From assembly GCA_020049855.1 (NCBI GenBank), contig JAGVLJ010000058.1, forward strand, positions 1 to 35,838: a stretch of 35,838 nt of DNA, given 5' to 3'. The translations under genes were made by a program, and so were the position numbers. The first letter of the stretch is position 1. Each line of letters begins with the position of its first letter. Under the pieces are notes generated by a model, which saw only the letters and a program-made list of their open reading frames with translations, ran no database searches and was not told where the DNA came from. Below are positions 17,607-32,539 of this stretch, in pieces. Origin of the DNA: Bacteroidia bacterium (GTDB lineage Bacteria; Bacteroidota; Bacteroidia; UKL13-3).

Positions 17607-17670
17607 TGAGTTAAGTCAATTCCAGACCTGACTATTATCATTTATTAAACCAGCGCTTGTATGGTACTTG
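17607..17670 (+). promoter_or_regulatory. Paired TGA-N6-TCA operator and -7 box of tnaA
   Basis: TGAGTTAAGTCA (17607-17618) and TGACTATTATCA (17629-17640) are separated by 10 bp, with centres 22 bp apart. TACTTG begins at 17665, 30.5 bp from the proximal centre, and acts as the candidate -7 box. Transcription would start near 17677, downstream of the upstream ATG at 17661, so translation should begin at ATG 17691. Confidence 0.75.
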
Positions 17671-17690
17671 CAGGCTTAAAGAAGTATGTA

Positions 17691-19079
17691 ATGACACAAC
17701 TCAAAAAAGAGCGTACCCTTGCCGAGCCGTTTCGCATAAAAATGGTAGAACCGTTAAAAGTAACCACCGAAGCTTACCGCCAAGAAATACTCAAAAAAAC
17801 CGGATACAATCCTTTTCTCATTCGTTCAGCCGATGTGTTTATTGATCTGCTCACCGATAGTGGAACAAGTGCCATGAGTGACCACCAGTGGGCGGGAATG
17901 ATGATAGGCGATGAATCGTATGCCGGGGCACATAGCTGGGAGCATTTTGAAGCCGTAGTAAAAGACCTGTGTGGGATGCCCTATATTTTACCAACTCATC
18001 AGGGGCGTGCCGCTGAACGTATTTTGTATGGAATTCTGGGGGGGAAAGACAAAGTGTTTATAAGCAATACCCATTTTGATACCACCCGCGCCAATATTGA
18101 ATTTACCGGAGCGCAGGCATTTGATATTTTACCGCCAGAGGCCTACGACCCCGAGCTCGATCTTCCGTTTAAAGGTGATATAGATACCGGACAACTGCGC
18201 AAACTGCTGAAGGAGTATGGTTCGTCTCGCATAGGAGCCGTAATTATGACGGTAACCAATAACTCGGCAGGCGGGCAGCCGGTGAGCATGGGTAATATGA
18301 AAGAGGTACGAAGCATTTGTGATGAACATGGAGTATTGCTGGTGATTGACGGATGCAGGGTAGCTGAGAATTCCTACTTTATTAAACATCGCGAAAAGGG
18401 ATATGAAAACAAAACATACAAGGAAATAGCACAGGAACTATTAAGGCTTGGCGATGCGTTTATGATGAGTGCCAAAAAAGATGCACTCGTAAATATGGGC
18501 GGTATTCTGGCAGTGAAAAATGAATATCTAGCAAGGAAATGTACCAATTTATTGATAATCTCCGAGGGGTTTGCCACCTATGGCGGACTCACGGGTCGCG
18601 ATATGGAAGCCATTGCTATTGGATTGCAGGAAGTGTTTGATGCCGATTACCTGCACTACCGCATCCGTTCAACAGCTTATCTGGGCGAACACTTGCGAAA
18701 TAAAGGTATCCCGGTGGTTTGGCCTATTGGCGGGCATGCTGTTTACATTGACTCAAAAAAATTGTATCCTCAAATACCCGTAGAGCAGTATCCCGGCCAA
18801 ATGCTGGTATGTGATTTATATCAAAAGGGCGGCATTCGTTGTGTAGAAGTAGGCTCGGTGATGTTTGGTAAATATGATGAACAAGGCAAGCTTATTCCAG
18901 CCAAAAATGAACTGGTGCGCTTAGCCATTCCAAGGCGCGTGTACACCCAAAGCCATATTGACTTTGTAATTGACGTGTTTGATGATATTTTGGAAATGCG
19001 TGAGCAAAAAACGGGATTAAAAATCACTTACGAGCCCCCATTCCTCAGGCACTTTACCGCTAAGTTCGATAAAATATAA
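17691..19079 (+). CDS. tnaA: Tryptophanase (PLP-dependent beta-eliminating lyase)
   Basis: 462 residues from ATG 17691 (MTQLKKERTLAEPFRIKMV); the ATG at 17661 lies upstream of the predicted -7 box and is rejected. The fold matches tryptophanase/tyrosine phenol-lyase: DVFIDLLTDSGT, LPTHQGRAAE, TVTNNSAGGQPVSM, and MSAKKDALVNMGG with the PLP lysine at K263. Specificity residues favour tryptophanase. Where tyrosine phenol-lyase has Arg (MERG) this protein has VEVG, and the C-terminus has LRHFTAKF with the tryptophanase His instead of the Phe of the tyrosine enzyme. The product would be indole, pyruvate and ammonia. It carries the paired operator. Confidence 0.9.
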   Translation: MTQLKKERTLAEPFRIKMVEPLKVTTEAYRQEILKKTGYNPFLIRSADVFIDLLTDSGTSAMSDHQWAGMMIGDESYAGAHSWEHFEAVVKDLCGMPYILPTHQGRAAERILYGILGGKDKVFISNTHFDTTRANIEFTGAQAFDILPPEAYDPELDLPFKGDIDTGQLRKLLKEYGSSRIGAVIMTVTNNSAGGQPVSMGNMKEVRSICDEHGVLLVIDGCRVAENSYFIKHREKGYENKTYKEIAQELLRLGDAFMMSAKKDALVNMGGILAVKNEYLARKCTNLLIISEGFATYGGLTGRDMEAIAIGLQEVFDADYLHYRIRSTAYLGEHLRNKGIPVVWPIGGHAVYIDSKKLYPQIPVEQYPGQMLVCDLYQKGGIRCVEVGSVMFGKYDEQGKLIPAKNELVRLAIPRRVYTQSHIDFVIDVFDDILEMREQKTGLKITYEPPFLRHFTAKFDKI

Positions 19080-20008: not shown

Positions 20009-20074
20009 TGACGAACATCACCACTTAAGGTGAGCGGCATCATTGCCGGATGTTTTACTACAGAGTTAATTTTG
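20009..20074 (+). promoter_or_regulatory. Paired TGA-N6-TCA operator and -7 box of hsp20
   Basis: TGACGAACATCA (20009-20020) and TGAGCGGCATCA (20031-20042) are separated by 10 bp. TAATTTTG, a perfect TAnnTTTG box, starts at 20067, 30.5 bp from the proximal centre. No TTTG is present at the -33 position, so transcription probably depends on the bound activator. The predicted transcript starts near 20081, 36 nt before the ATG. Confidence 0.8.
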
Positions 20075-20116: not shown

Positions 20117-20581
20117 ATGACAATCGCAGCAAAAAAAAATGAAAACACTCTCCCTTCGCTGGTGAGTGATTTTTTTGAAAAGGACAGGTTCTTTGGGAAT
20201 GATTTTTTTAACCTTGGAAACAATTTACTTAAGTGGGGCGATCTTGAAGCCAGAGTACCATCGGCCAACGTCATTGAGAACGGAAAGGATTTTAGAATTG
20301 AACTTGCGGCTCCCGGGTTGGAAAAAAAAGACTTCAAAATTGAAGTTGAAAACAATTACCTAACCATCAGTGCCGAGAAAAAGGAAGAAAAAAGGGAAGA
20401 AAAAGAGAATTACCGCAGAAGGGAATTTTCGTACAGCGGGTTCAGTCGTTCGTTTTTGTTACCTGATAGTGTGTTGGCCGATAAAATAGATGCCACGTAT
20501 CAGGATGGTATTTTGAAGCTCTCGGTTCCTAAAAAAGAACCTACCCCGATTCAAGCCAAAAAAGAAATTAAAGTATTTTAA
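20117..20581 (+). CDS. Small heat shock protein, Hsp20/alpha-crystallin family
   Basis: 154 residues, typical of bacterial Hsp20. It is an ATP-independent holdase that keeps unfolding proteins soluble. The alpha-crystallin domain occupies about residues 48-145: ANVIENGKDFRIELAAPGLE, KKDFKIEVENNYLTISAEKK, a charged loop, FSRSFLLPDSV, then DATYQDGILKLSVPKKE with the conserved GILxLxVPK-like end. The C-terminal tail is short and Lys-rich. It is monocistronic, with a paired operator upstream and a strong terminator downstream shared with the convergent hpf gene. Confidence 0.95.
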   Translation: MTIAAKKNENTLPSLVSDFFEKDRFFGNDFFNLGNNLLKWGDLEARVPSANVIENGKDFRIELAAPGLEKKDFKIEVENNYLTISAEKKEEKREEKENYRRREFSYSGFSRSFLLPDSVLADKIDATYQDGILKLSVPKKEPTPIQAKKEIKVF

Positions 20582-20680: not shown

Positions 20681-20974
20681 CTAACTATGGGTTGCTTTTC
20701 GTTTTTCCATTTGACGCTCGAGTGCAGTTACAGCGCGGGTGGCCGCTTCTTCAAAAGACACCGCTTTTTGCTTGGCAAAAAAATCATTGCCCGGAACGAT
20801 GAGTTTAATTTCACAAATTTTGTCTTCAGCTTCCGTAGCGTTGTCCAATAAAAAGTGAACATCGCAGGCAAGAATGTGCTCGTTAAAGTGGCTAAGTTTA
20901 GCAACTTTTTGGGTAATTAAATCGCGTAATCCATCATGAGGACGGGCATGGTTGAATTGAATGTTAATTTTCAT
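20681..20974 (-). CDS. hpf: Ribosome hibernation promoting factor, short form (HPF/RaiA family)
   Basis: 97 residues from ATG 20974 (MKINIQFNHARPHDGLRD); an upstream in-frame start at 20992 would precede the predicted transcript start and is rejected. The beta-alpha-beta-beta-beta-alpha pattern of the HPF/RaiA family is visible: LITQKVAKLSHF helix, ACDVHFLLDN and ICEIKLIVPG strands, then a basic C-terminal helix FEEAATRAVTALERQMEKRK. The protein binds the 30S decoding region and silences ribosomes under stress. The long-form C-terminal dimerisation domain is absent. Paired operator upstream. Confidence 0.85.
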   Translation of the reverse strand: MKINIQFNHARPHDGLRDLITQKVAKLSHFNEHILACDVHFLLDNATEAEDKICEIKLIVPGNDFFAKQKAVSFEEAATRAVTALERQMEKRKATHS

Positions 20975-20992
20975 AACCTGTTGTTTATACAT

Positions 20993-21057
20993 GCAAGGTA
21001 GTGTTTAGGCTACAATTGGCCAATGATATGTGTCATGTGTTATGCTGATGGAAATCA
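20993..21057 (-). promoter_or_regulatory. Paired TGA-N6-TCA operator and -7 box of hpf
   Basis: Palindromes at 21046-21057 (distal) and 21024-21035 (proximal) are separated by 10 bp. On the minus strand TACCTTGC starts at 21000, 29.5 bp from the proximal centre, as the candidate -7 box. Transcription would start about 10-12 nt before the hpf ATG. The region lies between the response-regulator stop (21121) and hpf. Confidence 0.75.
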
Positions 21058-21120: not shown

Positions 21121-22176
21121 TCAATTTTTCATAGCTGAAAGACGTTTATAATCAATAAGCACTATACCACTTCCATTTATTTCAATCAGGCCCTCATCTT
21201 TAAAGTCGCTTAAAGTACGGATCACCGTTTCTTTTGCCGTTCCGGCCAGATTGGCGAGATTTTCGCGCGAAATATCGGTGGTAAATTGTTTCTCATCTGT
21301 TTTGTAACTTTTATAAACCGTGAGCAAGGCTTCGGCCACCCGTTTTCTAACCGAGGTATAGGCAAGCCTGATGAGTTGTTCTTCTTTTTCGGCCAAATTT
21401 CCGGATAGCATTTTTATAAATTTTTGAGACAAATCCCTATTTTGGAAAACTAGTGCAAAGAAATCATCTTTTGGCATAAAACTTATTTCGGTATCATCCA
21501 TTGCCTCGGCCGAATCGGTATAAACGGATTCTTCCATCAGGGCGAGATACCCTAAAAAGTCTCCTTCTTTATTCAAACTTATTATTAATTCTTTTCCCAG
21601 TTCATGTGTTTTATACACTTTAACCTTCCCTTTTTTAATAAAGAAAATACCTCTGGGATATTCGCCTTCTTTGTAAATACTTGCTTTTTTAGGCACCCTT
21701 TTTACATCCCACTCTTCCGATAGTTTGTTCAAATCCCAAACCTTTCGGGCATCGCTAATAAAATCATGCAAGCCGGCTTCGTTTTGTTCAAATTCTTTTT
21801 TCAACGATTCGGTTTTTTTCAGCCGGCTATCTACCGCATTCAGCAGTTCAATATTGCTAAATGGTTTAGTGATATAATCATCGGCACCCAACTCCATCCC
21901 CTTGCGGTAATCGCTTCGTTCGGCTTTTGCTGTTAAAAATATAAATGGAATATTTTGGGTAGTCTGGTTTTTGGAAAGAAGGTAAAGTGTACCATACCCG
22001 TCAAGTTCGGGCATCATTACATCGCATATAATTATATCTGGGATGGAACTCTCGGCCGCATCCAAACCCTCCTTTCCGTTTGTGGCTGTTATTACTTGGT
22101 AATTGGCCAGTTCAAGAATGGCTTTGGTATTTTCCAGCATTTCAGGATTGTCCTCTATTAGTAAAATCTTTTTCAT
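21121..22176 (-). CDS. Response regulator with CRP/FNR-type effector (receiver-cNMP-HTH)
   Basis: 351 residues, three domains. Receiver (1-120): acidic pair E8/D9, phosphoacceptor D52 (IIICDVMMP), FLTAKAE and ITKPF with the conserved Lys. Cyclic-nucleotide-binding-like beta-roll (about 150-260): ASIYKEGEYPRGIFFIKKGK, KELIISLNKEGDFLGYLALM. Crp-type winged helix (about 275-345): TTDISRENLANLAGTAKETV, with Glu and Arg of the KETVIR recognition helix matching the CRP residues that read TGA half-sites. The cAMP-contact motif of Crp is not obvious, so phosphorylation rather than a nucleotide may switch it. Divergent from the PAS kinase gene, its likely partner. No paired operator or clear promoter for this gene itself was found. 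Confidence 0.9.
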   Translation of the reverse strand: MKKILLIEDNPEMLENTKAILELANYQVITATNGKEGLDAAESSIPDIIICDVMMPELDGYGTLYLLSKNQTTQNIPFIFLTAKAERSDYRKGMELGADDYITKPFSNIELLNAVDSRLKKTESLKKEFEQNEAGLHDFISDARKVWDLNKLSEEWDVKRVPKKASIYKEGEYPRGIFFIKKGKVKVYKTHELGKELIISLNKEGDFLGYLALMEESVYTDSAEAMDDTEISFMPKDDFFALVFQNRDLSQKFIKMLSGNLAEKEEQLIRLAYTSVRKRVAEALLTVYKSYKTDEKQFTTDISRENLANLAGTAKETVIRTLSDFKDEGLIEINGSGIVLIDYKRLSAMKN

Positions 22177-22409: not shown

Positions 22410-22475
22410 TGATTAAAGTCATTGTTTAAATTGATATTGGTCAGTAGCCTGTGAGGGCAGTTTTTTTTAATTTTG
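22410..22475 (+). promoter_or_regulatory. Paired TGA-N6-TCA operator and -7 box of the PAS kinase
   Basis: TGATTAAAGTCA (22410-22421), extended to AATGA-N6-TCATT, and TGATATTGGTCA (22432-22443) are separated by 10 bp. TAATTTTG starts at 22468, 30.5 bp from the proximal centre, exactly as at hsp20. The leader to ATG 22560 would be about 78 nt. The remaining part of this 383-bp divergent region (22177-22409) shows no gene. Confidence 0.8.
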
Positions 22476-22559
22476 GACAAAGGAAAAAGTAGAGAATTAA
22501 GAGCGATTAATGGGATAGGCACAATCATGTGCAGCACGGGCAGAATCTAGTGCGTATTG

Positions 22560-24836
22560 ATGCAACATTTAAAAGTAAAATGGTTTTTTCTTCTCAGCGT
22601 TTTAGCTGTAGGCGGAGTATTATTTGCCGTGGATATCGTCACAAGTCAGCCATATTATGTTGCGCTGGTAGCACTTGGATTATGGATTAGAACAAACGAA
22701 GCAGCATTGAAGCTATGGGTTGTAGCTACAGTTTTGTTGGTTGCCGGTTCTTTTTTTTCAAATGAACATGATGATGTTAAAGTAAGAACAATTGAGTTCG
22801 GAGATATTTGCCTTGTTGGAATCATTATTCATATACGAAACAAGGCCACCCGAAAATTACAGATACAGGAGGAACGCTTTCGTCTTTTTGCAAAAATGAG
22901 CCCCATTGGGAAATTTCATACAGATGCAGCCGGGAAAATTGATTTTGTAAATGATAAATGGCTTGAACTAACGGGTGTACCATATGAGAAAGCTATCGGA
23001 GCGGAGTGGAGCTTAATGCTTTTTGATGATGAAAGCATATATAACGAATGGCAACAAAAAACCAAAAGCGGAAAATTATTTGCAGGGGAATATGTGTTGC
23101 GAAATAAAAAAACAAACCATGATTATGAGGCTTTGATAAAAGCGGTTTCAATCAGAACATCGGATGGGGAGCTTGAGGGATATGTGGGCACCATAGATGA
23201 TATTACCGAGCAGGCAAAAGCAAAAAAAATTATTGAGGGAAGTGAGCGTTGGTTTAGAAGTATTGCCGAGAATTCTCCGGTGATGATTTGGGTTAATGAT
23301 AGTACTTTTCAATGTACTTACTTAAATCAAACCATGCTGTCGTTTACCGGAAATACGCTAAAACAGGAGCTTAGCAGAGGGTGGATGGCCGCAATACATC
23401 CTGATGACAAACTAGCAAGTTATAATAGGTGCAGAGGTGCATTTGAAAAAAGGGAACCTTTTAAAATCGAATATCGTTTGCGAAGGCATGATGGTCAATA
23501 TCGTTGGATAACCGATCATGGAAACCCGGTGTTTTTACCTGATGGCACTTTTACTGGCTACGTAGGAACGTGTACCGATATCCATACAATGCGAACGATG
23601 AATGAATGGCTGGAGCAAAAGGTAAAAGAGAAAACAGGCTACCTCACCAAAGTTGTTGGCGAACTGAAGCATAAGATTGCCGAACATCAGCACACGGAAG
23701 AAAACCTGATGCGAGCCAATGAACGTTTTACCAAACTATTTAATGAAAGCCCTGCGGCCAATGCCATTTGTTTATTGGAAAATGAAGAATTGATTGACTG
23801 TAATCAGGCATTTGCCGAATTAACGGGGTATGAACGTGAGGAATTAATTGGTGGTAAATCACTCTATTCTTATTTAATGTCGGATATAAGGGCAGGAGAA
23901 CTGTCACAACTATTGAAAGAGACCGATCACGTGCAAAAATTTGAAATGGAGCTTACCCGAAAGCAGGGGGATAAAGTATGGGTATCACTTAGCTTGCAGC
24001 GAATAATGATGGATAATAAACCTTATTTGTTAAGCGTATTGCTAAATACTACTGAATTAAAAAGAGCCGAAGAGAAGATTATTTCCGCCTTAAAAAAAGA
24101 AAAGGAGTTGAATGAAATGAAAACGAATTTCCTCTCGGTGGCATCGCATGAATTCAGAACGCCTCTGGGCGTATTGTTAACCAGCATTAACCTTATTGAG
24201 GCATATCATAAAAGGGGTGATAACGAAAAGTGCAATAAGTATTTTAGGCAGGCAGAAGGTTCAATTAAAAACATGACCGACATTTTGAATGATTTTTTAA
24301 CACTGGAAAAACTGGAAGAGCATAGGGTAGAGCATGTAGAATATAATTTTGACCTCACAAAATTTTCGACCGAGATTATGGAAGAAACAAAAGTGATATT
24401 GCGGCTCGGACAGGCAATTGTTTATGAGCATTATGGTACCTCAATGGTGAATCTTGATAAAAATACGCTCAGGAATATTCTCTTTAACTTGATATCAAAT
24501 GCAAGTAAATATTCTCCGGCAGGGGCTAAGATATATTTAACTACCGAGGTACAGGAGGCGAAAATCCGTATTCTGGTTCGTGATACTGGTATTGGCATTC
24601 CGCAGGAAGATCAGAAAAATATTTTCACCCGATTTTACAGAGCGACCAACACCAACAGTATTCAGGGTACCGGTTTGGGATTAAATATTGTGCAGAAGTA
24701 TGTTGAACTGATGAATGGGCAAATCACTTTTATCAGTGAGGTAAATAGAGGAACCACATTTGTATTAACATTTGATGAGTATGTTGTTGCGGGTCGTGTT
24801 GGTACGGTTGCACACTCAGACATAGTTTACGATTAG
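22560..24836 (+). CDS. Membrane-associated multi-PAS sensor histidine kinase
   Basis: 758 residues from ATG 22560 (MQHLKVKWFFLLSV); a TTG three bases earlier is unnecessary. Two to three hydrophobic segments (about 5-75) are followed by three PAS/PAC units: about 105-225, 228-355 (WFRSIAENSPVMIWVND) and 390-515 (FTKLFNESPAANAICLLENE), with a coiled-coil linker between the last two. HisKA carries the phosphoacceptor H530 (SVASHEFRTPLG), and HATPase_c has the N-box NLISNASKYSP, DTGIGIP and GTGLGLNIV. There is no large periplasmic domain, so sensing is probably cytoplasmic or within the membrane. No haem-binding or cysteine motif is obvious. Divergent from the receiver-CRP gene. Confidence 0.9.
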   Translation: MQHLKVKWFFLLSVLAVGGVLFAVDIVTSQPYYVALVALGLWIRTNEAALKLWVVATVLLVAGSFFSNEHDDVKVRTIEFGDICLVGIIIHIRNKATRKLQIQEERFRLFAKMSPIGKFHTDAAGKIDFVNDKWLELTGVPYEKAIGAEWSLMLFDDESIYNEWQQKTKSGKLFAGEYVLRNKKTNHDYEALIKAVSIRTSDGELEGYVGTIDDITEQAKAKKIIEGSERWFRSIAENSPVMIWVNDSTFQCTYLNQTMLSFTGNTLKQELSRGWMAAIHPDDKLASYNRCRGAFEKREPFKIEYRLRRHDGQYRWITDHGNPVFLPDGTFTGYVGTCTDIHTMRTMNEWLEQKVKEKTGYLTKVVGELKHKIAEHQHTEENLMRANERFTKLFNESPAANAICLLENEELIDCNQAFAELTGYEREELIGGKSLYSYLMSDIRAGELSQLLKETDHVQKFEMELTRKQGDKVWVSLSLQRIMMDNKPYLLSVLLNTTELKRAEEKIISALKKEKELNEMKTNFLSVASHEFRTPLGVLLTSINLIEAYHKRGDNEKCNKYFRQAEGSIKNMTDILNDFLTLEKLEEHRVEHVEYNFDLTKFSTEIMEETKVILRLGQAIVYEHYGTSMVNLDKNTLRNILFNLISNASKYSPAGAKIYLTTEVQEAKIRILVRDTGIGIPQEDQKNIFTRFYRATNTNSIQGTGLGLNIVQKYVELMNGQITFISEVNRGTTFVLTFDEYVVAGRVGTVAHSDIVYD

Positions 24837-24876: not shown

Positions 24877-27285
24877 TTATTCTTCATGTACTGCAATAGC
24901 TTTCGTTGTTTCGGCTTTTAGCATGTTGGTAATGCCTTTTAGCAACGAGTCGGGGTTGAATGAAATACTGTCAATTCCCTGTTCAATAAGGAAACGGGTA
25001 AATTCAGGGAAATCGCTAGGGGCTTGTCCGCATAAACCTATTTTGGTGTGTGTTTGTTTGGAATTATGAATGAGCGAGGCAATGAGGTTTTTTACAGCAG
25101 GATTATTCTCGTCAAAGAGGTTGCTCAGAATGGCCGAGTCGCGATCAACTCCCAGCGTAAGTTGAGTTAGGTCGTTAGAGCCTATGGAAAACCCATCAAA
25201 AATGTGGGCAAATTCTTTAGCCAGAATAATGTTGCTGGGAATCTCAGCCATCATATATATTTCCAGCCCTTCGTCTCCACGATGCAATCCATACTTTTCC
25301 ATCAGGCTGATTACTTTTTTCCCCTCTTCAACGGTGCGGCAAAATGGGATCATTAATTTTATATTAGTTAATCCCATGTCATTTCTAACTTTTTTCATGG
25401 CCTCACATTCCAGTCTGAATCCTTCGCGATACCTTTCGTTGTAATACCTAGAGGCACCCCTAAAACCTAACATCGGATTTTCCTCAGTTGGTTCAAACTC
25501 CTTTCCGCCTATTAAACTGGCATACTCATTTGTTTTAAAATCGCTCATGCGCACAATTACATCCTTAGGATAAAAGGCCGCGCCAATGGTTGCCACAGCC
25601 TGTGTCAGTTTATCAATGAAGTAAACTTCTTTTACCGGATACTCATGAGTTAATTCCGCAATTTCTATTTTAGCTTTTGCATCAGTAAGTTGATTGTATT
25701 TAATCAACGCCATAGGGTGAATTCGGATAGCATTGGTGATAATAAATTCCAGCCGCATCAACCCTATTCCTCTGTTTGGATAGAACGAATACAAAAAGGC
25801 TTTGTCGGGATCACCAAGAATTAGCATTGGTGCGGTGTCGGGCATAGGAATATTATGGAAATTAATGTTGCGTGTTTCCCATTTTAATAGGCCATGATAC
25901 ACCAGGCCTGTTTTGCCTTGAGCACACGAAACAGTTATGGGTTCACCATCTTTTATAGTTTCGGTTGCATTACCTGCTCCTACTATGGCTACAGCACCTA
26001 TTTCTCTGGCAATAATGGCTGCATGGCTGGTACGCCCTCCTTTATTGGTAATGATGGCACTTGCTTTTTTTAAAATCGGATCCCAATCTGGATTGGTAAT
26101 ATCTGTTACTAACACTTCACCGGGCTGCAATTTTTCTGCCTCGGCTGGCGATAGGATGATTCTGGCTTTACCACAAGCCACACCCGAACCCACGGCATTG
26201 CCGGTAGCAAGAATATTTCCTGTTTCTTTCAGTTGATATTCTGTTTTTACATAGGGGTCTTTTATCGAGTGAACTGTTTCGGGTCGAGCTTGAATAATGT
26301 ATATTCGGTTATCATTTCCGTCTTTGGCCCATTCAATATCCATGGGGCAATGGTAATGTTCTTCAATTTCCATACACCACTGCGCCAGTTGGGTTATTTC
26401 ACAGTCGTTAAGCACCCATTGCTTTTGTTTTTCCGGTAGCGTATCGGTATTGATGGTGGTGTTAATTGTAGAAATGGTGGTGGGTGCATATACCATTGTT
26501 TTTGCTTTTGTACCCAACTTCTTGTATAAGATGGCTTTTTTTCCTGCCCGCAACATGGGTTTAAATACACAAAACTCATCTGGATTAAGGTTGCCCTGCA
26601 CAATGTTTTCTCCCAACCCCCAACAGCCCGAAATTGTTACTACATCTCTGAATCCCGATTCGGGTTCGAGGGTAAAACAAATCCCGGAGGATGCCATATC
26701 GGAACGAACCATTAATTGAATTCCTGCAGATAGGGCAACTTTCATATGGTCGAATCCGTAATCGGAACGGTATTTAATGGCTCTTGCATTAAACAGGGAT
26801 GCAAAACATTTTTTTACTGCCTCGGATAGTTGCCCGTCACCTTGTATGTTTAAAAAGGAATCATGTAGTCCGGCAAAACTGGCTGTGGGTAAATCTTCGG
26901 CCGTGGCACTGCTTCTAACCGCCACCGAAACCCGATTACCGTATTTTTCGCACAATGCCGCATAATGAGTTCTTATTTCATCCCGTAAGGTATCGGGCAT
27001 GGTTGCACAAAGCAGTAAGTTGCGAATGTTTTTACTAGTTTCATTCAGATTGCTAAAACTTTTTGTATCCAGTTGCTCCAGTTGATTTCTAATTTTTTTC
27101 TCCAGCATATTCTCAAATAAAAAATAGAGGTATGCTTCGTTAGTAGTAGCAAATCCATCAGGAATCAGAATCCCATTAGCGGTAAGCGACCTGATCATTT
27201 CTCCCAGAGAAGCATTTTTACCACCCACTACAGCAACATCCTTATTACTGAGTTGGCTAAACGGAAGGATGAAATTTGTTTTCAT
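24877..27285 (-). CDS. ppsA: Phosphoenolpyruvate synthase
   Basis: 802 residues, close to E. coli PpsA (792). It converts pyruvate, ATP and water to PEP, AMP and phosphate, the entry to gluconeogenesis. The N-terminal ATP-grasp part has GGKNASLGEM, VAVRSSATAEDLPTASFAG and IYIIQARPET. The swivelling domain has GGRTSHAAIIARE with catalytic His421, the same number as in E. coli. The TIM-barrel end has FSIGSNDLTQLTLGVDRD and GLCGQAPSD. It is convergent with the kinase gene (40 bp apart). It sits inside the stress cluster but has no TGA-N6-TCA pair in its 135-bp upstream region. Confidence 0.95.
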   Translation of the reverse strand: MKTNFILPFSQLSNKDVAVVGGKNASLGEMIRSLTANGILIPDGFATTNEAYLYFLFENMLEKKIRNQLEQLDTKSFSNLNETSKNIRNLLLCATMPDTLRDEIRTHYAALCEKYGNRVSVAVRSSATAEDLPTASFAGLHDSFLNIQGDGQLSEAVKKCFASLFNARAIKYRSDYGFDHMKVALSAGIQLMVRSDMASSGICFTLEPESGFRDVVTISGCWGLGENIVQGNLNPDEFCVFKPMLRAGKKAILYKKLGTKAKTMVYAPTTISTINTTINTDTLPEKQKQWVLNDCEITQLAQWCMEIEEHYHCPMDIEWAKDGNDNRIYIIQARPETVHSIKDPYVKTEYQLKETGNILATGNAVGSGVACGKARIILSPAEAEKLQPGEVLVTDITNPDWDPILKKASAIITNKGGRTSHAAIIAREIGAVAIVGAGNATETIKDGEPITVSCAQGKTGLVYHGLLKWETRNINFHNIPMPDTAPMLILGDPDKAFLYSFYPNRGIGLMRLEFIITNAIRIHPMALIKYNQLTDAKAKIEIAELTHEYPVKEVYFIDKLTQAVATIGAAFYPKDVIVRMSDFKTNEYASLIGGKEFEPTEENPMLGFRGASRYYNERYREGFRLECEAMKKVRNDMGLTNIKLMIPFCRTVEEGKKVISLMEKYGLHRGDEGLEIYMMAEIPSNIILAKEFAHIFDGFSIGSNDLTQLTLGVDRDSAILSNLFDENNPAVKNLIASLIHNSKQTHTKIGLCGQAPSDFPEFTRFLIEQGIDSISFNPDSLLKGITNMLKAETTKAIAVHEE

Positions 27286-27368: not shown

Positions 27369-27409
27369 ATACTAAAACAGACCCTTGTTTAAGGGGCCTG
27401 TTTTAGTAT
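27369..27409 (-). terminator. Terminator hairpin after the SprB-repeat gene
   Basis: The arms ATACTAAAACAG (27369-27380) and CTGTTTTAGTAT (27398-27409) pair perfectly over 12 bp, extended by a CCCTT/AAGGG inner stem. It lies 11 bp past the stop codon of the long minus-strand gene and separates it from ppsA. Confidence 0.8.
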
Positions 27410-27420
27410 AATTTCGGATA

Positions 27421-30400
27421 TTAATTAAGAATTTTCAGGCGGGTGGTTGCCGATTTATTTCCGGTATACATCCGAACAAAATAGATTCCGCTTTTTAGTC
27501 CGCTAATGTCAATAACCAACCTGTTTGAGTCGGGGTTGGATTTATAAACGGTTTCTCCGATCATGTTGATTAGTTCTACCTGTTTTATCATGTTGTTTCC
27601 GGCATCAATGGTTACTTGTCCGGCAGCCGGATTAGGGTAAACTTTAATGTCGGAGTAATTAGTAATCCCGTTAATACTAAGCGGGAAGCTCACTGTAAAT
27701 ACTCCCGAGGTCATGCAGGCATTAGCATCAGTAATGGTGACGGTATAAGTGCCTGGAGAAAGGTCAGTAATATCTTCTACAGTATTGCCGTTTGACCAAC
27801 TGAAAGCATAAGGAGGAGTACCACCGGTGGTAGTAATGTTTACACTACCGTTTTTAGCAGCACTACTTGAAACATTTGTAACCACCCCATTCACTATAAG
27901 AGGGCTTGCTGGTTGAGTGATGGTGAAATTTTCGGAATCGGTACATCCATTTGCATCTTGTATGACTACGCTATAGCTTCCTGCTTTAAGATTAAAAATG
28001 TCCTCGGTATTGGCCTCATTTGACCAATTGTATGCATAGGGGTAGGTTCCACCGATAACAGTTATGTCAATTACTCCATTGTTTCCGCCATAACAACTTA
28101 CATTGTATCGGTTATTAGCCAAATTAAGTACTTCCGGTTCTAAAATAACCACATCTTCCGTCTTCACACAATTGTTAGCATCTTTTACATATACAGCATA
28201 ATCGCCTCCGCTTAATCCGGTAAAAGACTGGGTGAGCTGATAGCCTGATCCGGCAAGCGCATATTGCAGTGAGCCCGTACCGCCCGATGCCGTAATGGTA
28301 ATGGCTCCGTTTTGCGAACCATTGCAGGTTACATCAAGAGTTCCAATATCAGAGATAATAATTGCAGGAGGTTGAACAATGGTTTTAAAAGTAGAGCCTA
28401 CGCATCCTCCCGCATCTCTTACATAGATCTGATAAGTACCGGCACTTAAGCCGGTAAGTACATTGTTTGACTGGTAAGTGATGCCATCAATGCTATAGGC
28501 TAATGTACCGCTTCCGCCACCTGCAGTAACGGTGATGGTGCCATTGTTTCCACCATAGCAGCTTACATTGGTTGTAGATGCATAAACAACAATAGCAGCA
28601 GGTTCAGTTAAAGTAGTGGAGGCGGAGCCGGTGCAGCCTACACCATCTTTTACAACTACGGTATGTGCTCCGGCTGTTAAGCCGCTAAATACGTTGGATG
28701 ATTGCCATGGAGAACCATCAATTCGATAGGTAAGTGCTCCTGAGCCTCCGGTAACATTGGTGACGGTAACAGAACCGTCATTGCCTCCGTTGCAGGAAAT
28801 ATCTGTTTTGCTTATGGAATTAATGGATGGCCCGTCAACATTGGCTACAATAGACTGAAACAAATTACGACAACCCGAGCCATCCTGCACTACTATAACG
28901 TAAGTACTGTCAACAAGAGATGTAAACGAACCGGTGCTGTTCCAAATTGTATTGTTAATGCTGTATTGATAACCCGATCCCGAACCGCCACCTGCTGCTA
29001 CCAAAATATTTCCGTTGGCATTGCCACAGGTAGAATTTCCGGTGGTTACGGTTGCTGTTATAGCCGTAGGCTGGGTAATTGTAACCACTTTGGTGGCTAT
29101 GCAATTATTGGCATCCTTTACCGTTGCGGTATAAGTTCCGGCAGCAAGTCCGGTAAAGTCCCCTGTTGGGAAAAAGTTGGTGCCATCCAGGCTGTAGCTA
29201 TACGGAGATATTCCGCCAGCAATCATCACCGTTAGAATTCCATCAGAACCCACATTGCACGATACATTGATAGATGAAACTGAAACAACCATTTGGGTAG
29301 GCTGGGTTACGGTTACATTGGTGGTGGCTGCACATCCGGCTACGTCTTTCACATATACCGTGTAGGTTCCTGCTGCAATTCCGTTAAATATGCCTGATGA
29401 CTGGAATGTGTTTCCGTTAATGCTGTAAACAAGGGTACCGGTTCCGCCAATAGCAGAGGTTACGATAATTTTACCGTCATTTCCACCATTGCATAGTACC
29501 GGAGAAGAGGTGGCATTTACAACAAGTGCTGATGGTTCGGTAAGTGTAACGGTTCTTATATCAGTACAACCGTTTCCGTCTTTCACCATAAGGGTATATA
29601 TCCCTGCGCCCAAATTATTGAATGTTCCCGATGATTGGAAAGTACCATTATTTAAATTGTATTGCAGAGTACCGCTTCCGCCTGAACCCGATACAGTAAC
29701 AGATCCGTTAGTGCCGCCAAAGCAGGTAATTTGCGAGGTAGAATTGATATTTAGCGTGGGGCCACCGGCATCGTTCACAATAACCCCGATGGTATTAGTA
29801 CACCCGTTAGCATCTTTGGCTCGTACCGTGTAGTTGCCTGCCATTAAATTAGCAAAAGCTCCGGTAGCTTGCCAGGTGGTATCATTTAGGCTGTATTGAA
29901 TGGTTCCGCTGCCCCCACTTGCCGAAACAAGTAATGCTCCATTGGCATTGCCGCAACTCGATTGGGTAGTAGAGGGAGTATTAAAAATAATTGAAGCGGG
30001 CATGTTTACTGTAGCGATAGTTGTTTTAATGCAGTTAAACGAATCTTTTACATAAAATGTGAATGTACCTGCACCCAGCGATGAAAAGGTGGCCGATGAT
30101 TGATAGGTTTCTCCGTTGCGGCTGTATTTATAAGGAGCAGCACCACCGGTTGCAGTCAGGGTTACACTTCCGTTTGCTGCTCCGCTGCAGGTAGCATTGG
30201 AAACCGAAGCAACACTAAGGTTTAAGCCAACAGAAATTTTCATGGTATAGGTGTTTGAACAAGCTCCGTTCCATCCGCCCATAGTGGCTTTTAGCGTAAC
30301 GGTGTATAAACCGGCACTTGCGTAGGTGTGTTCCGGGTTTGTGGCGTATGAAACAGCCGACCCGTCACCAAAGTTCCAAGTATAAAAATTGTCCGATCCG

Positions 30401-31113
30401 ATATAACCCGAAAGGCCAATGGTGTTAAACATACTATCGCGGGATAGGAGTGTAGTATTGGTAAAGGTTACAGGCGTTGCAGCTGGGATACAGGCCGAAT
30501 TTATGGTAAACCCGCTGGTGATGTAATGCATCATCTTAGGAATAATGTAAAAGTCACCGTTTTTTGAATAAGTGTTTTTGGCACTTGCCCAGTTAAATCC
30601 GGTATTGGTGCCCGCCAGCGAAGCCAAATCTTCCCCTCGGCCTTCTCCGTCTCCATTGTAGCTAATGGTAAACGTAGTAATTCCCGAATACCCTCCCGTC
30701 ATTTCAATGGAGGCGGCAAAATTCGCATTTACTGCAAGCCCGCTTCCCGAAAAGCTAATGTCTTTATAGCCGTTTGAATTGTCAAGGAAAGTCCAAGTGA
30801 ATGTTTTGGTTCCGATTGCTGTTGCCGGACGACCATTGGCATCAACTGTGTAAATTTTAGCCGCCATGGCAAGTCCGAGTAGGGCATTTGTTTTGCCATA
30901 GATGCGTACTCCGGTAACCCTGCCGGGACCCGAATAATAGTAGGTTTGGGCTGCATTTTCCAACGAGCCTGCAGTAAGCGTGTAGCCCCCAACTAACCCC
31001 GTGTTTTTCCATTGAGGATAGCCGTTTAAGTCACTGCAGGAGGTAGCTCCCTGACCGAAGGCAAAGAATGCCCCGGATAGAAGTACCAGCATCATGAGTG
31101 TCATTTTTTTCAT
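27421..31113 (-). CDS. Large secreted/surface protein: PKD domain, 11 SprB-type repeats, T9SS sorting domain
   Basis: 1230 residues. Signal peptide (about 1-20: MKKMTLMMLVLLSGAFFAFG). An N-terminal unrecognised beta-rich domain (about 22-215) is followed by a PKD domain (about 217-298, with NFGDGS and YTVTLKATMG). About 11 repeats of 75-80 residues follow (about 300-1150). Each has a start like SCNGGNDGSVTVT, a GG-turn, YSIDG, a GLxAGTYTVxVKD strand and a conserved Cys near DANGC, as in SprB repeats of gliding adhesins. The end (about 1157-1230) is a type A T9SS sorting domain: VYPNPAAGQVTID, then LKSGIYFVRMYTG. It should be exported through Por/T9SS and attached to the surface or released. 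Paired operator upstream. Confidence 0.9.
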   Translation of the reverse strand: MKKMTLMMLVLLSGAFFAFGQGATSCSDLNGYPQWKNTGLVGGYTLTAGSLENAAQTYYYSGPGRVTGVRIYGKTNALLGLAMAAKIYTVDANGRPATAIGTKTFTWTFLDNSNGYKDISFSGSGLAVNANFAASIEMTGGYSGITTFTISYNGDGEGRGEDLASLAGTNTGFNWASAKNTYSKNGDFYIIPKMMHYITSGFTINSACIPAATPVTFTNTTLLSRDSMFNTIGLSGYIGSDNFYTWNFGDGSAVSYATNPEHTYASAGLYTVTLKATMGGWNGACSNTYTMKISVGLNLSVASVSNATCSGAANGSVTLTATGGAAPYKYSRNGETYQSSATFSSLGAGTFTFYVKDSFNCIKTTIATVNMPASIIFNTPSTTQSSCGNANGALLVSASGGSGTIQYSLNDTTWQATGAFANLMAGNYTVRAKDANGCTNTIGVIVNDAGGPTLNINSTSQITCFGGTNGSVTVSGSGGSGTLQYNLNNGTFQSSGTFNNLGAGIYTLMVKDGNGCTDIRTVTLTEPSALVVNATSSPVLCNGGNDGKIIVTSAIGGTGTLVYSINGNTFQSSGIFNGIAAGTYTVYVKDVAGCAATTNVTVTQPTQMVVSVSSINVSCNVGSDGILTVMIAGGISPYSYSLDGTNFFPTGDFTGLAAGTYTATVKDANNCIATKVVTITQPTAITATVTTGNSTCGNANGNILVAAGGGSGSGYQYSINNTIWNSTGSFTSLVDSTYVIVVQDGSGCRNLFQSIVANVDGPSINSISKTDISCNGGNDGSVTVTNVTGGSGALTYRIDGSPWQSSNVFSGLTAGAHTVVVKDGVGCTGSASTTLTEPAAIVVYASTTNVSCYGGNNGTITVTAGGGSGTLAYSIDGITYQSNNVLTGLSAGTYQIYVRDAGGCVGSTFKTIVQPPAIIISDIGTLDVTCNGSQNGAITITASGGTGSLQYALAGSGYQLTQSFTGLSGGDYAVYVKDANNCVKTEDVVILEPEVLNLANNRYNVSCYGGNNGVIDITVIGGTYPYAYNWSNEANTEDIFNLKAGSYSVVIQDANGCTDSENFTITQPASPLIVNGVVTNVSSSAAKNGSVNITTTGGTPPYAFSWSNGNTVEDITDLSPGTYTVTITDANACMTSGVFTVSFPLSINGITNYSDIKVYPNPAAGQVTIDAGNNMIKQVELINMIGETVYKSNPDSNRLVIDISGLKSGIYFVRMYTGNKSATTRLKILN

Positions 31114-31201
31114 AACATATTTATTAAGTTAATGAATTAAGTATAATCGCCAAATTTGAATTGGTGTGGGATTTTTCCTGATAAACTCAAATTTGCAGAT
31201 A

Positions 31202-31266
31202 CAAAATTCCCCCATTGACTTGTGGTTGCCGCTGACGGCTGTCACCGTTATGGATGATGTACATCA
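31202..31266 (-). promoter_or_regulatory. Paired TGA-N6-TCA operator upstream of the SprB-repeat gene
   Basis: Palindromes at 31255-31266 (distal; ATGATGTACATCAT is fully symmetric) and 31233-31244 (proximal) are separated by 10 bp. On the minus strand GAATTTTG, one mismatch from TAnnTTTG, starts at 31209, 29.5 bp from the proximal centre, giving an 80-nt leader for the gene at 31113. In the plus direction a weaker TAGTTGGT (31292) lies toward the tRNA. The minus orientation is preferred but not certain. Confidence 0.7.
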
Positions 31267-31396
31267 TTTACCCGGGTGATTTGATGAGGCTTAGTTGGTT
31301 TACAGAATAAAACAGGTTGTTGTAAAGCAGGGTTCAAAAATTTTGGCAGAATTTATACCTATATATTACCTTCGCCTTCCCAGAAACAAAAAAATT

Positions 31397-31470
<74 letters not shown>

Positions 31471-31481
31471 CACTGATAATC

Positions 31482-31693: not shown

Positions 31694-32539
31694 TTAATTT
31701 TTTCGTTTTTTCATTATTGCTCTTTCCACCATTGAGAGAATCTGTTTATCATGTTCAGTGGAAACAAAATTATCAGCGTCATTAATGTAGTCTGCATATG
31801 TTTGTCCGGATATGTCAGAGGGCGGGGTTGGTTGCCCTTCTTTTTTTATTGGTAAAACACGTTTGCCCCAGGTCAACGCCACTCCCATCTCTATCATTAC
31901 ATTTGAATTCATATCAGAGGTTTCAAAAACTGCAATGTCGGCTGAAATAATGTCTCGCGCAATCTGGTTAAATAAATGCTCGCCATATCCAGCTGCTAAT
32001 GACTTAAAATTAAGAGATACTCCCTTAGTCATTTGTTTTGCATTAATTTTATCAATTGCAGTCTGAAATTGATTTTGAAGATTTAATTTTAGATTTTCAG
32101 AGTTGTAATGTTGTGATTTAAATTGATACCCAAATACTATTTTTATAGTTGAATTTTTTGATAATTCTGTTTGAACAAACTCCCAATCAATGTCTGTAAA
32201 ACCAAAAGGTGAACCCGCTGCTAATGGTTGTTGAGCAACAATACTATTATTGGTAACTTCGCTTTTATCTTCGTTGGCTTCTTTTAATTCATGATAAATA
32301 TAATTTCCTCTACTATTTAAACCAACGACTCCAAAATTGTATGGGGCAGTCCCTAAATAATTCCGTCTATCTAACAAGCCTCTGTCGTCAAGAAAGTCAA
32401 TGGCATTATTTATTTCAACCGAATTTAACCCAGTCCAATGACTAATTTCATCTCCATCAAACAATAGGTCTTCGTGAGGATTGTTCTCAAAAAGTGAGAC
32501 AATTATTTTAGTTGCATTTTTTTCGATTGGATTGCCCAT
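31694..32539 (-). CDS. Winged-helix plus TIR/nucleoside-deoxyribosyltransferase-like protein
   Basis: 281 residues. The N-terminal part (about 1-85) looks like a winged helix (TGLNSVEINNAIDFLDDRGL followed by a strand-turn-strand). The C-terminal part (about 125-250) has the alternating strand/helix pattern of the nucleotide-processing TIR-like/deoxyribosyltransferase fold: a first strand IKIVFGYQF, then ISADIAVFETSDMNSNVMIE and EMGVALTWGKRVLPI. That region carries the N-x-N-V-x-x-E-x-G-x-A signature in which the Glu is the usual catalytic residue. Similar domains act as NAD- or nucleotide-degrading effectors in phage defence, but the enzyme activity and target here are inference. 51 bp separate it from the upstream minus-strand gene. 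Confidence 0.65.
   Translation of the reverse strand: MGNPIEKNATKIIVSLFENNPHEDLLFDGDEISHWTGLNSVEINNAIDFLDDRGLLDRRNYLGTAPYNFGVVGLNSRGNYIYHELKEANEDKSEVTNNSIVAQQPLAAGSPFGFTDIDWEFVQTELSKNSTIKIVFGYQFKSQHYNSENLKLNLQNQFQTAIDKINAKQMTKGVSLNFKSLAAGYGEHLFNQIARDIISADIAVFETSDMNSNVMIEMGVALTWGKRVLPIKKEGQPTPPSDISGQTYADYINDADNFVSTEHDKQILSMVERAIMKKRKN

Follow-up and report, generated by a model that had tools for sequence, protein, structure and literature searches.

A tandem Crp/Fnr-type operator and a −7 element upstream of an SprB-repeat surface protein gene suggest activation together with low-oxygen-type genes in a Bacteroidia bacterium

Introduction

The described systems closest to the locus studied here include the FixL-FixJ-FixK system of rhizobia and the DosR dormancy regulon of mycobacteria, in which genes for Usp, CBS and HSP20 proteins and hibernation factors are under low-oxygen two-component control. 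FNR/DNR-type regulons have TTGAT-N4-ATCAA boxes, and the −7 element of Bacteroidota promoters has the form TAnnTTTG. For the surface protein, the point of reference is SprB of Flavobacterium johnsoniae, a 669-kDa protein with a type B tail that is co-expressed with sprF (PMC9143113).

We analysed 35,838 nucleotides of a Bacteroidia bacterium (lineage UKL13-3, contig JAGVLJ010000058.1), hereafter the window. A first-pass annotation had described, at 27421-31266, a giant SprB-repeat protein of gliding/adhesion type, apparently under a stress regulator. We find that the gene has a predicted promoter of its own with two Crp/Fnr-type boxes in tandem, and from the DNA we consider it fairly probable that this promoter activates the gene when oxygen is low or a related redox signal arrives, with the neighbouring histidine kinase and a response regulator fused to a Crp-type protein (RR-Crp) as the likeliest activator.

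Results

The SprB-repeat protein has a type A sorting tail

27421..31113, minus strand: SprB-repeat surface protein gene, product secreted by the type IX secretion system (T9SS); 1230 aa with signal peptide, N-terminal beta-rich domain, PKD domain, 11 SprB repeats and type A sorting domain

The gene lies within the annotated span but ends at 31113, the remainder up to 31266 being promoter. Its 1230 codons encode the T9SS protein with about 11 SprB repeats and a PKD domain that had been described, and Pfam, the NCBIfam tail and the cysteine spacing agree on this. Pfam recognises SprB repeats (PF13573) in ten stretches (E 4e-70) along with a PKD and a Por_Secre_tail match (1158-1228), and NCBIfam assigns the tail to TIGR04183, T9SS type A (E 4.5e-15). 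Repeat units were delimited by eye from the translation, with cysteine spacing as a guide; because the cysteines (309, 387, 464, 541, 619, 696, 774, 852, 930 and 1007) are regularly spaced and one Cys-less unit lies near 1083, we count 11 repeats of about 77.5 aa each. The features of a T9SS type A cargo are all present, namely a signal peptide (judged by reading the N-terminus of the translation), the type A tail and, encoded in the genome, the T9SS translocon SprA. A sequence search of the N-terminal part against the PDB returned hardly anything but PKD domains, most of them from collagenases; AlphaFold2 modelled the N-terminal domain with a mean pLDDT of 62.

The mature protein, at about 124 kDa, does not deserve the name giant next to the 669 kDa of F. 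johnsoniae SprB. Nor is the gliding-type label supported, as the tail is of type A versus type B in the F. johnsoniae protein with its co-expressed sprF. No PorP-like/SprF gene was found beside the SprB-repeat gene, whose neighbours are a PPDK-like gene and tRNA-Pro. Searches for orthologs yielded none, only paralogs of about 30% identity, all without tandem boxes. The protein is predicted to be attached by its type A tail and to form a repeat stalk, and a role in attachment is possible.

A tandem operator lies between the SprB gene and tRNA-Pro

31233..31244, minus strand: Crp/Fnr-type box TGACAGCCGTCA, the one nearer to the promoter, with its midpoint at about −41.5 from the predicted start
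31255..31266, minus strand: distal Crp/Fnr-type box TGATGTACATCA, centred near −63.5
31397..31471, plus strand: tRNA-Pro (ggg)

The double operator, annotated at 120-150 bp upstream, was located at 31233-31266, which is 120-153 nt upstream of the ATG (31113) and between the gene and tRNA-Pro (31397-31471), as had been stated. It is built as TGA-N6-TCA, 10 bp, TGA-N6-TCA and reads TGACGGCTGTCA, ten bases, TGATGTACATCA. Since base shuffles of the window contained a mean of 0.02 such pairs (spacer 7-13), the tandem pair is not a product of chance. The exact pattern TGA-N6-TCA-N10-TGA-N6-TCA occurs 18 times in the whole genome versus 0 for the reversed pattern, which served as control, and when spacers of 8-11 were allowed all genomic matches had exactly 10. 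Five tandem boxes are found in the window; besides that of the SprB-repeat gene, they are:

17607..17640, plus strand: tandem box before a tryptophanase/tyrosine phenol-lyase-like gene (17661-19079), kept in the sister genome G047
20009..20042, plus strand: tandem box of HSP20 (20117-20581), with TAATTTTG at +24
21024..21057, minus strand: tandem box of HPF (hibernation factor, 20681-20992), with TACCTTGC at +23 (4/6)
22410..22443, no strand assigned: tandem box in the divergent region of kinase and RR-Crp, with −7 elements on both sides, TAATTTTG at +24 (kinase, plus) and TAAATTCG at +23 (RR-Crp, minus)

The operator of the SprB gene is of the same kind as those at HSP20, HPF and the regulator/kinase pair, in line with the earlier proposal of joint control with hibernation factors, and its geometry is directed toward the SprB gene. 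Through the single box at 22410-22443, the kinase/RR-Crp pair probably regulates itself. An origin of the SprB operator from an old operator of HPF was rejected, as HPF still has its own box at 21024. Triple boxes in a row with a 22-bp period were seen at L028 (G000:C70:34104-34159) and L146/L148 (G047:C13) and are kept between two species.

A −7 element at fixed distance gives the operator its direction

31202..31209, minus strand: −7 promoter element GAATTTTG, 5/6 of TAnnTTTG, 23 nt past the proximal box
31114..31197, minus strand: predicted 5' untranslated region of the SprB gene with a strong terminal hairpin; start deduced, not mapped
31341..31374, plus strand: separate promoter of tRNA-Pro, TTTTGG ... 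TACCTTCG, 34 bp, kept in a sister without the SprB gene
24877..27285, minus strand: PEP synthase/PPDK-like gene, part of the regulator block but lacking an exact tandem box

We surveyed 133 unique tandem boxes for TAnnTTTG (at least 5/6 fixed letters), the offset being the number of nt from box to element start. The element began at +23 in 98 and at +24 in 16 of them, with about 3 at each other offset. The promoter box previously noticed in minus orientation is the −7 element at 31209-31202, which differs from TAnnTTTG by one mismatch and follows the rule. On the plus strand, no −7 element was found at +22 to +25 of the SprB operator. The SprB gene is the one toward which the operator is oriented, because the minus strand has its −7 element at +23, the plus strand is empty and a separate promoter serves tRNA-Pro. 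Counted from the start deduced from the −7 element, the boxes would fall at −41.5 and −63.5. This is the arrangement of class II activation, in which a box lies near −41.5 upstream of the core at fixed spacing. The predicted SprB mRNA opens with a 12-bp hairpin (−12.4 kcal/mol; inverted repeat within 31114-31197), and a possible terminator lies at 27382-27395, between the PPDK-like gene and the SprB gene.

The regulon around RR-Crp resembles low-oxygen regulons

21121..22176, minus strand: RR-Crp, a receiver-cNMP-HTH_Crp fusion regulator (Pfam domains)
22557..24836, plus strand: histidine kinase with three PAS domains, divergent from RR-Crp

Full-length relatives of RR-Crp occur in records of Chitinophagales, Saprospiraceae, Cytophagales and Flavobacteriales, and 25 of the 62 family genomes encode one. 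At loci picked solely for RR-Crp, tandem boxes had a spacer of 10 in 56 cases and of 11 in six, with at most one case for any other spacer. In six RR-Crp genomes, 21 of 67 boxes lay less than 12 kb from RR-Crp versus 0.48 expected, an expectation that assumes an even box spread and independent genomes, while the genomes are related. The 61 genes behind boxes near RR-Crp include genes for Usp (9), CBS (7), histidine kinases (5), metal P-type ATPases (4), HSP20 (3), radical SAM/HemN-like proteins (3) and cbb3 oxidase (2), so that cbb3 oxidase, HemN-like, Usp, CBS and HSP20 genes are all present as microaerobic targets behind tandem boxes. Elsewhere in the genome of the window, boxes precede genes for Usp, cytochrome c, NorC and Crp paralogs. 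In one RR-Crp neighbourhood (L123/L124, G009:C38), a stretch of about 20 kb contains at least 11 tandem boxes, among them those of HSP20, Usp and a PPDK relative.

Kinases at nine loci of RR-Crp relatives contain a FixL-type PAS segment, and the single one compared with FixL structures matched them with E 7e-27. By analogy, these nine loci and the FixL match suggest that the RR-Crp family works like a FixL feeding a FixK-type activator. Reading of its sequence revealed no FixL motif in the window kinase (22557-24836), so its signal may differ. As a separate observation, the sensor domains of this kinase seem to be other than those of its FixL-type counterparts in relatives, possibly through a sensor swap.

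The earlier term stress regulator therefore holds in part. A receiver-Crp fusion with tandem boxes is there; the regulon, judging by its genes (Usp, CBS, HSP20, HPF, HemN-like, cbb3 oxidase, NorC), looks like a low-oxygen one of FixL/FixK or FNR type more than like generic stress, and, with the sister genome G047 in view, Crp-family proteins other than RR-Crp may bind.

RR-Crp is the likeliest but not the sole candidate binder

In G047, a genome without RR-Crp, 15 tandem boxes are present, and the tandem design therefore serves other Crp paralogs too; a near-perfect box with one mismatch (by reading) precedes its HPF gene. The genome of the window encodes five HTH_Crp_2 proteins, RR-Crp and four more, and several genomes with RR-Crp have zero exact tandem boxes. 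When box number was compared with RR-Crp presence across genomes, no clear association was seen, and the base preferences of boxes near RR-Crp and of boxes in RR-Crp-free genomes were nearly equal, leaving the two groups inseparable. The boxes of G047, those at the NorC, cytochrome c and Crp paralog genes and the similar base preferences speak for a promoter that works as described but is bound by a stand-alone FNR/DNR-type paralog (on C27, C70, C82 or C46), which would control denitrification and Usp boxes, while at the SprB gene RR-Crp would matter little if at all. We regard this as unlikely, though it deserves to be taken seriously, given that boxes cluster beside RR-Crp in several genera, that SprB gene, RR-Crp and PPDK sit in one block missing from both sisters, and that the SprB and HSP20 boxes rank narrowly above all others of the genome in RR-like score. 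For the SprB operator, RR-Crp thus appears the likeliest but not the only candidate.

Whichever protein binds, the boxes could repress the SprB-repeat gene rather than activate it, as Crp-family proteins can do. Nothing direct points that way; boxes at −41.5/−63.5 leave the −7 element uncovered, and many promoters of low-oxygen-type genes share this fixed geometry, which makes repression improbable.

The SprB gene belongs to a block missing from sister genomes

In G047 the tryptophanase-like gene is followed by HPF and then tRNA-Pro, whose promoter is kept; no HSP20, RR-Crp, kinase, PPDK or SprB gene lies between these genes, and the SprB-gene box is absent. Neither sister genome has RR-Crp or PPDK, and no SprB-gene ortholog was seen in either. 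Regulator, kinase, PPDK and SprB gene thus appear to be one block of about 10 kb, gained here or lost in the sisters.

The operator might be genuine but idle, having come with the regulator block, and the surface protein might then have no meaningful co-regulation. The SprB gene is missing from both sisters and has no known ortholog with a box, and T9SS-type proteins are rare among the genes behind the tandem boxes surveyed, in a reading of loci many of which end inside the gene. The 27421-31113 product is the sole SprB-repeat protein recognised among the box-controlled genes read; for one secreted protein in the sister G046 (L151), too, a box and a near −7 element were seen. Both boxes are perfect, however, and the −7 element is in place at a gene without ortholog in the sisters, and we consider an idle operator improbable.

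That the operator regulates tRNA-Pro, alone as the first-pass annotation had considered or in both directions, is very improbable: it does lie between both genes and precedes the tRNA promoter by about 75 nt, but the plus strand is empty at +22 to +25, the boxes would fall near −120 and −142 from the predicted tRNA-Pro start, and the TTTTGG/TACCTTCG promoter is kept in G047 without the operator.

Two further observations concern this side of the locus. In G046, the 3' 47 nt of the same tRNA-Pro (C87:25899-25973) recur at 57554-57600, about 31.6 kb downstream, and type I restriction-like genes follow the tRNA, which looks like an integrated element. Just beyond tRNA-Pro in the window, 31694-32539 gives a weak CAP12/Pycsar TIR match below the Pfam cut-off, with neighbours of no known family.

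Discussion

Reading regulation from DNA alone, we propose that the SprB gene would be transcribed leftward from its own promoter at about 31197, where two dimers of the Crp/Fnr family, one at −63.5 and one at −41.5 at a distance of 22 bp, would recruit RNA polymerase to the Bacteroidota −7 element. The likeliest activator would be the adjoining two-component system, whose PAS kinase and receiver-Crp fusion would work like a FixL that feeds a FixK-type protein. In response to low oxygen, or to a related redox signal, the gene would then be switched on together with HSP20, HPF and RR-Crp itself, and its product would exit via the type IX system and be held by the type A tail as a repeat stalk. 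This suggests that the cell surface may change on entry into a low-oxygen resting state. Tentatively, and with well under even confidence, we picture a fusion system of FixL/FixK-like character that has spread among Bacteroidota along with its rigid tandem-box design and has taken over a T9SS repeat protein. Cells going into low-oxygen dormancy would then remodel or anchor their surface while idling their ribosomes. The genes for the regulator, the kinase, PPDK and the surface protein sit together in the block, about 10 kb long, that both sisters lack.

Two Crp-type boxes 22 bp apart plus a −7 element at +23 make a testable promoter rule for low-oxygen-type genes of Bacteroidota. We found no description of it in the open literature; subscription journals lay mostly outside the search, so its absence is not proven. 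The link between a surface protein and a resting state is now open to experimental test.

Among known systems, FixL-FixJ-FixK has an activator of the Crp/Fnr family and cbb3 oxidase and HemN-like targets in common with the RR-Crp loci, and kinases next to relatives of RR-Crp carry the FixL heme PAS. The present system differs in that the roles of FixJ and FixK are fused in one receiver-Crp protein, in the tandem boxes with a 22-bp period and a Bacteroidota-type −7 element, and in the window's own kinase, which has no FixL motif. With the DosR regulon it has in common low-oxygen two-component control and Usp, CBS, HSP20 and hibernation-factor genes, whereas DosR itself belongs to the LuxR type, with no relationship to Crp, and its regulon lacks a T9SS surface protein. 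Like F. johnsoniae SprB, the window protein combines SprB repeats with type IX secretion; unlike it, it has a type A tail (SprB, type B) and measures 124 kDa instead of 669 kDa. Finally, the TGA-N6-TCA box and its class II position recall FNR/DNR-type regulons, but a fixed pair of boxes stands here in place of the single one.
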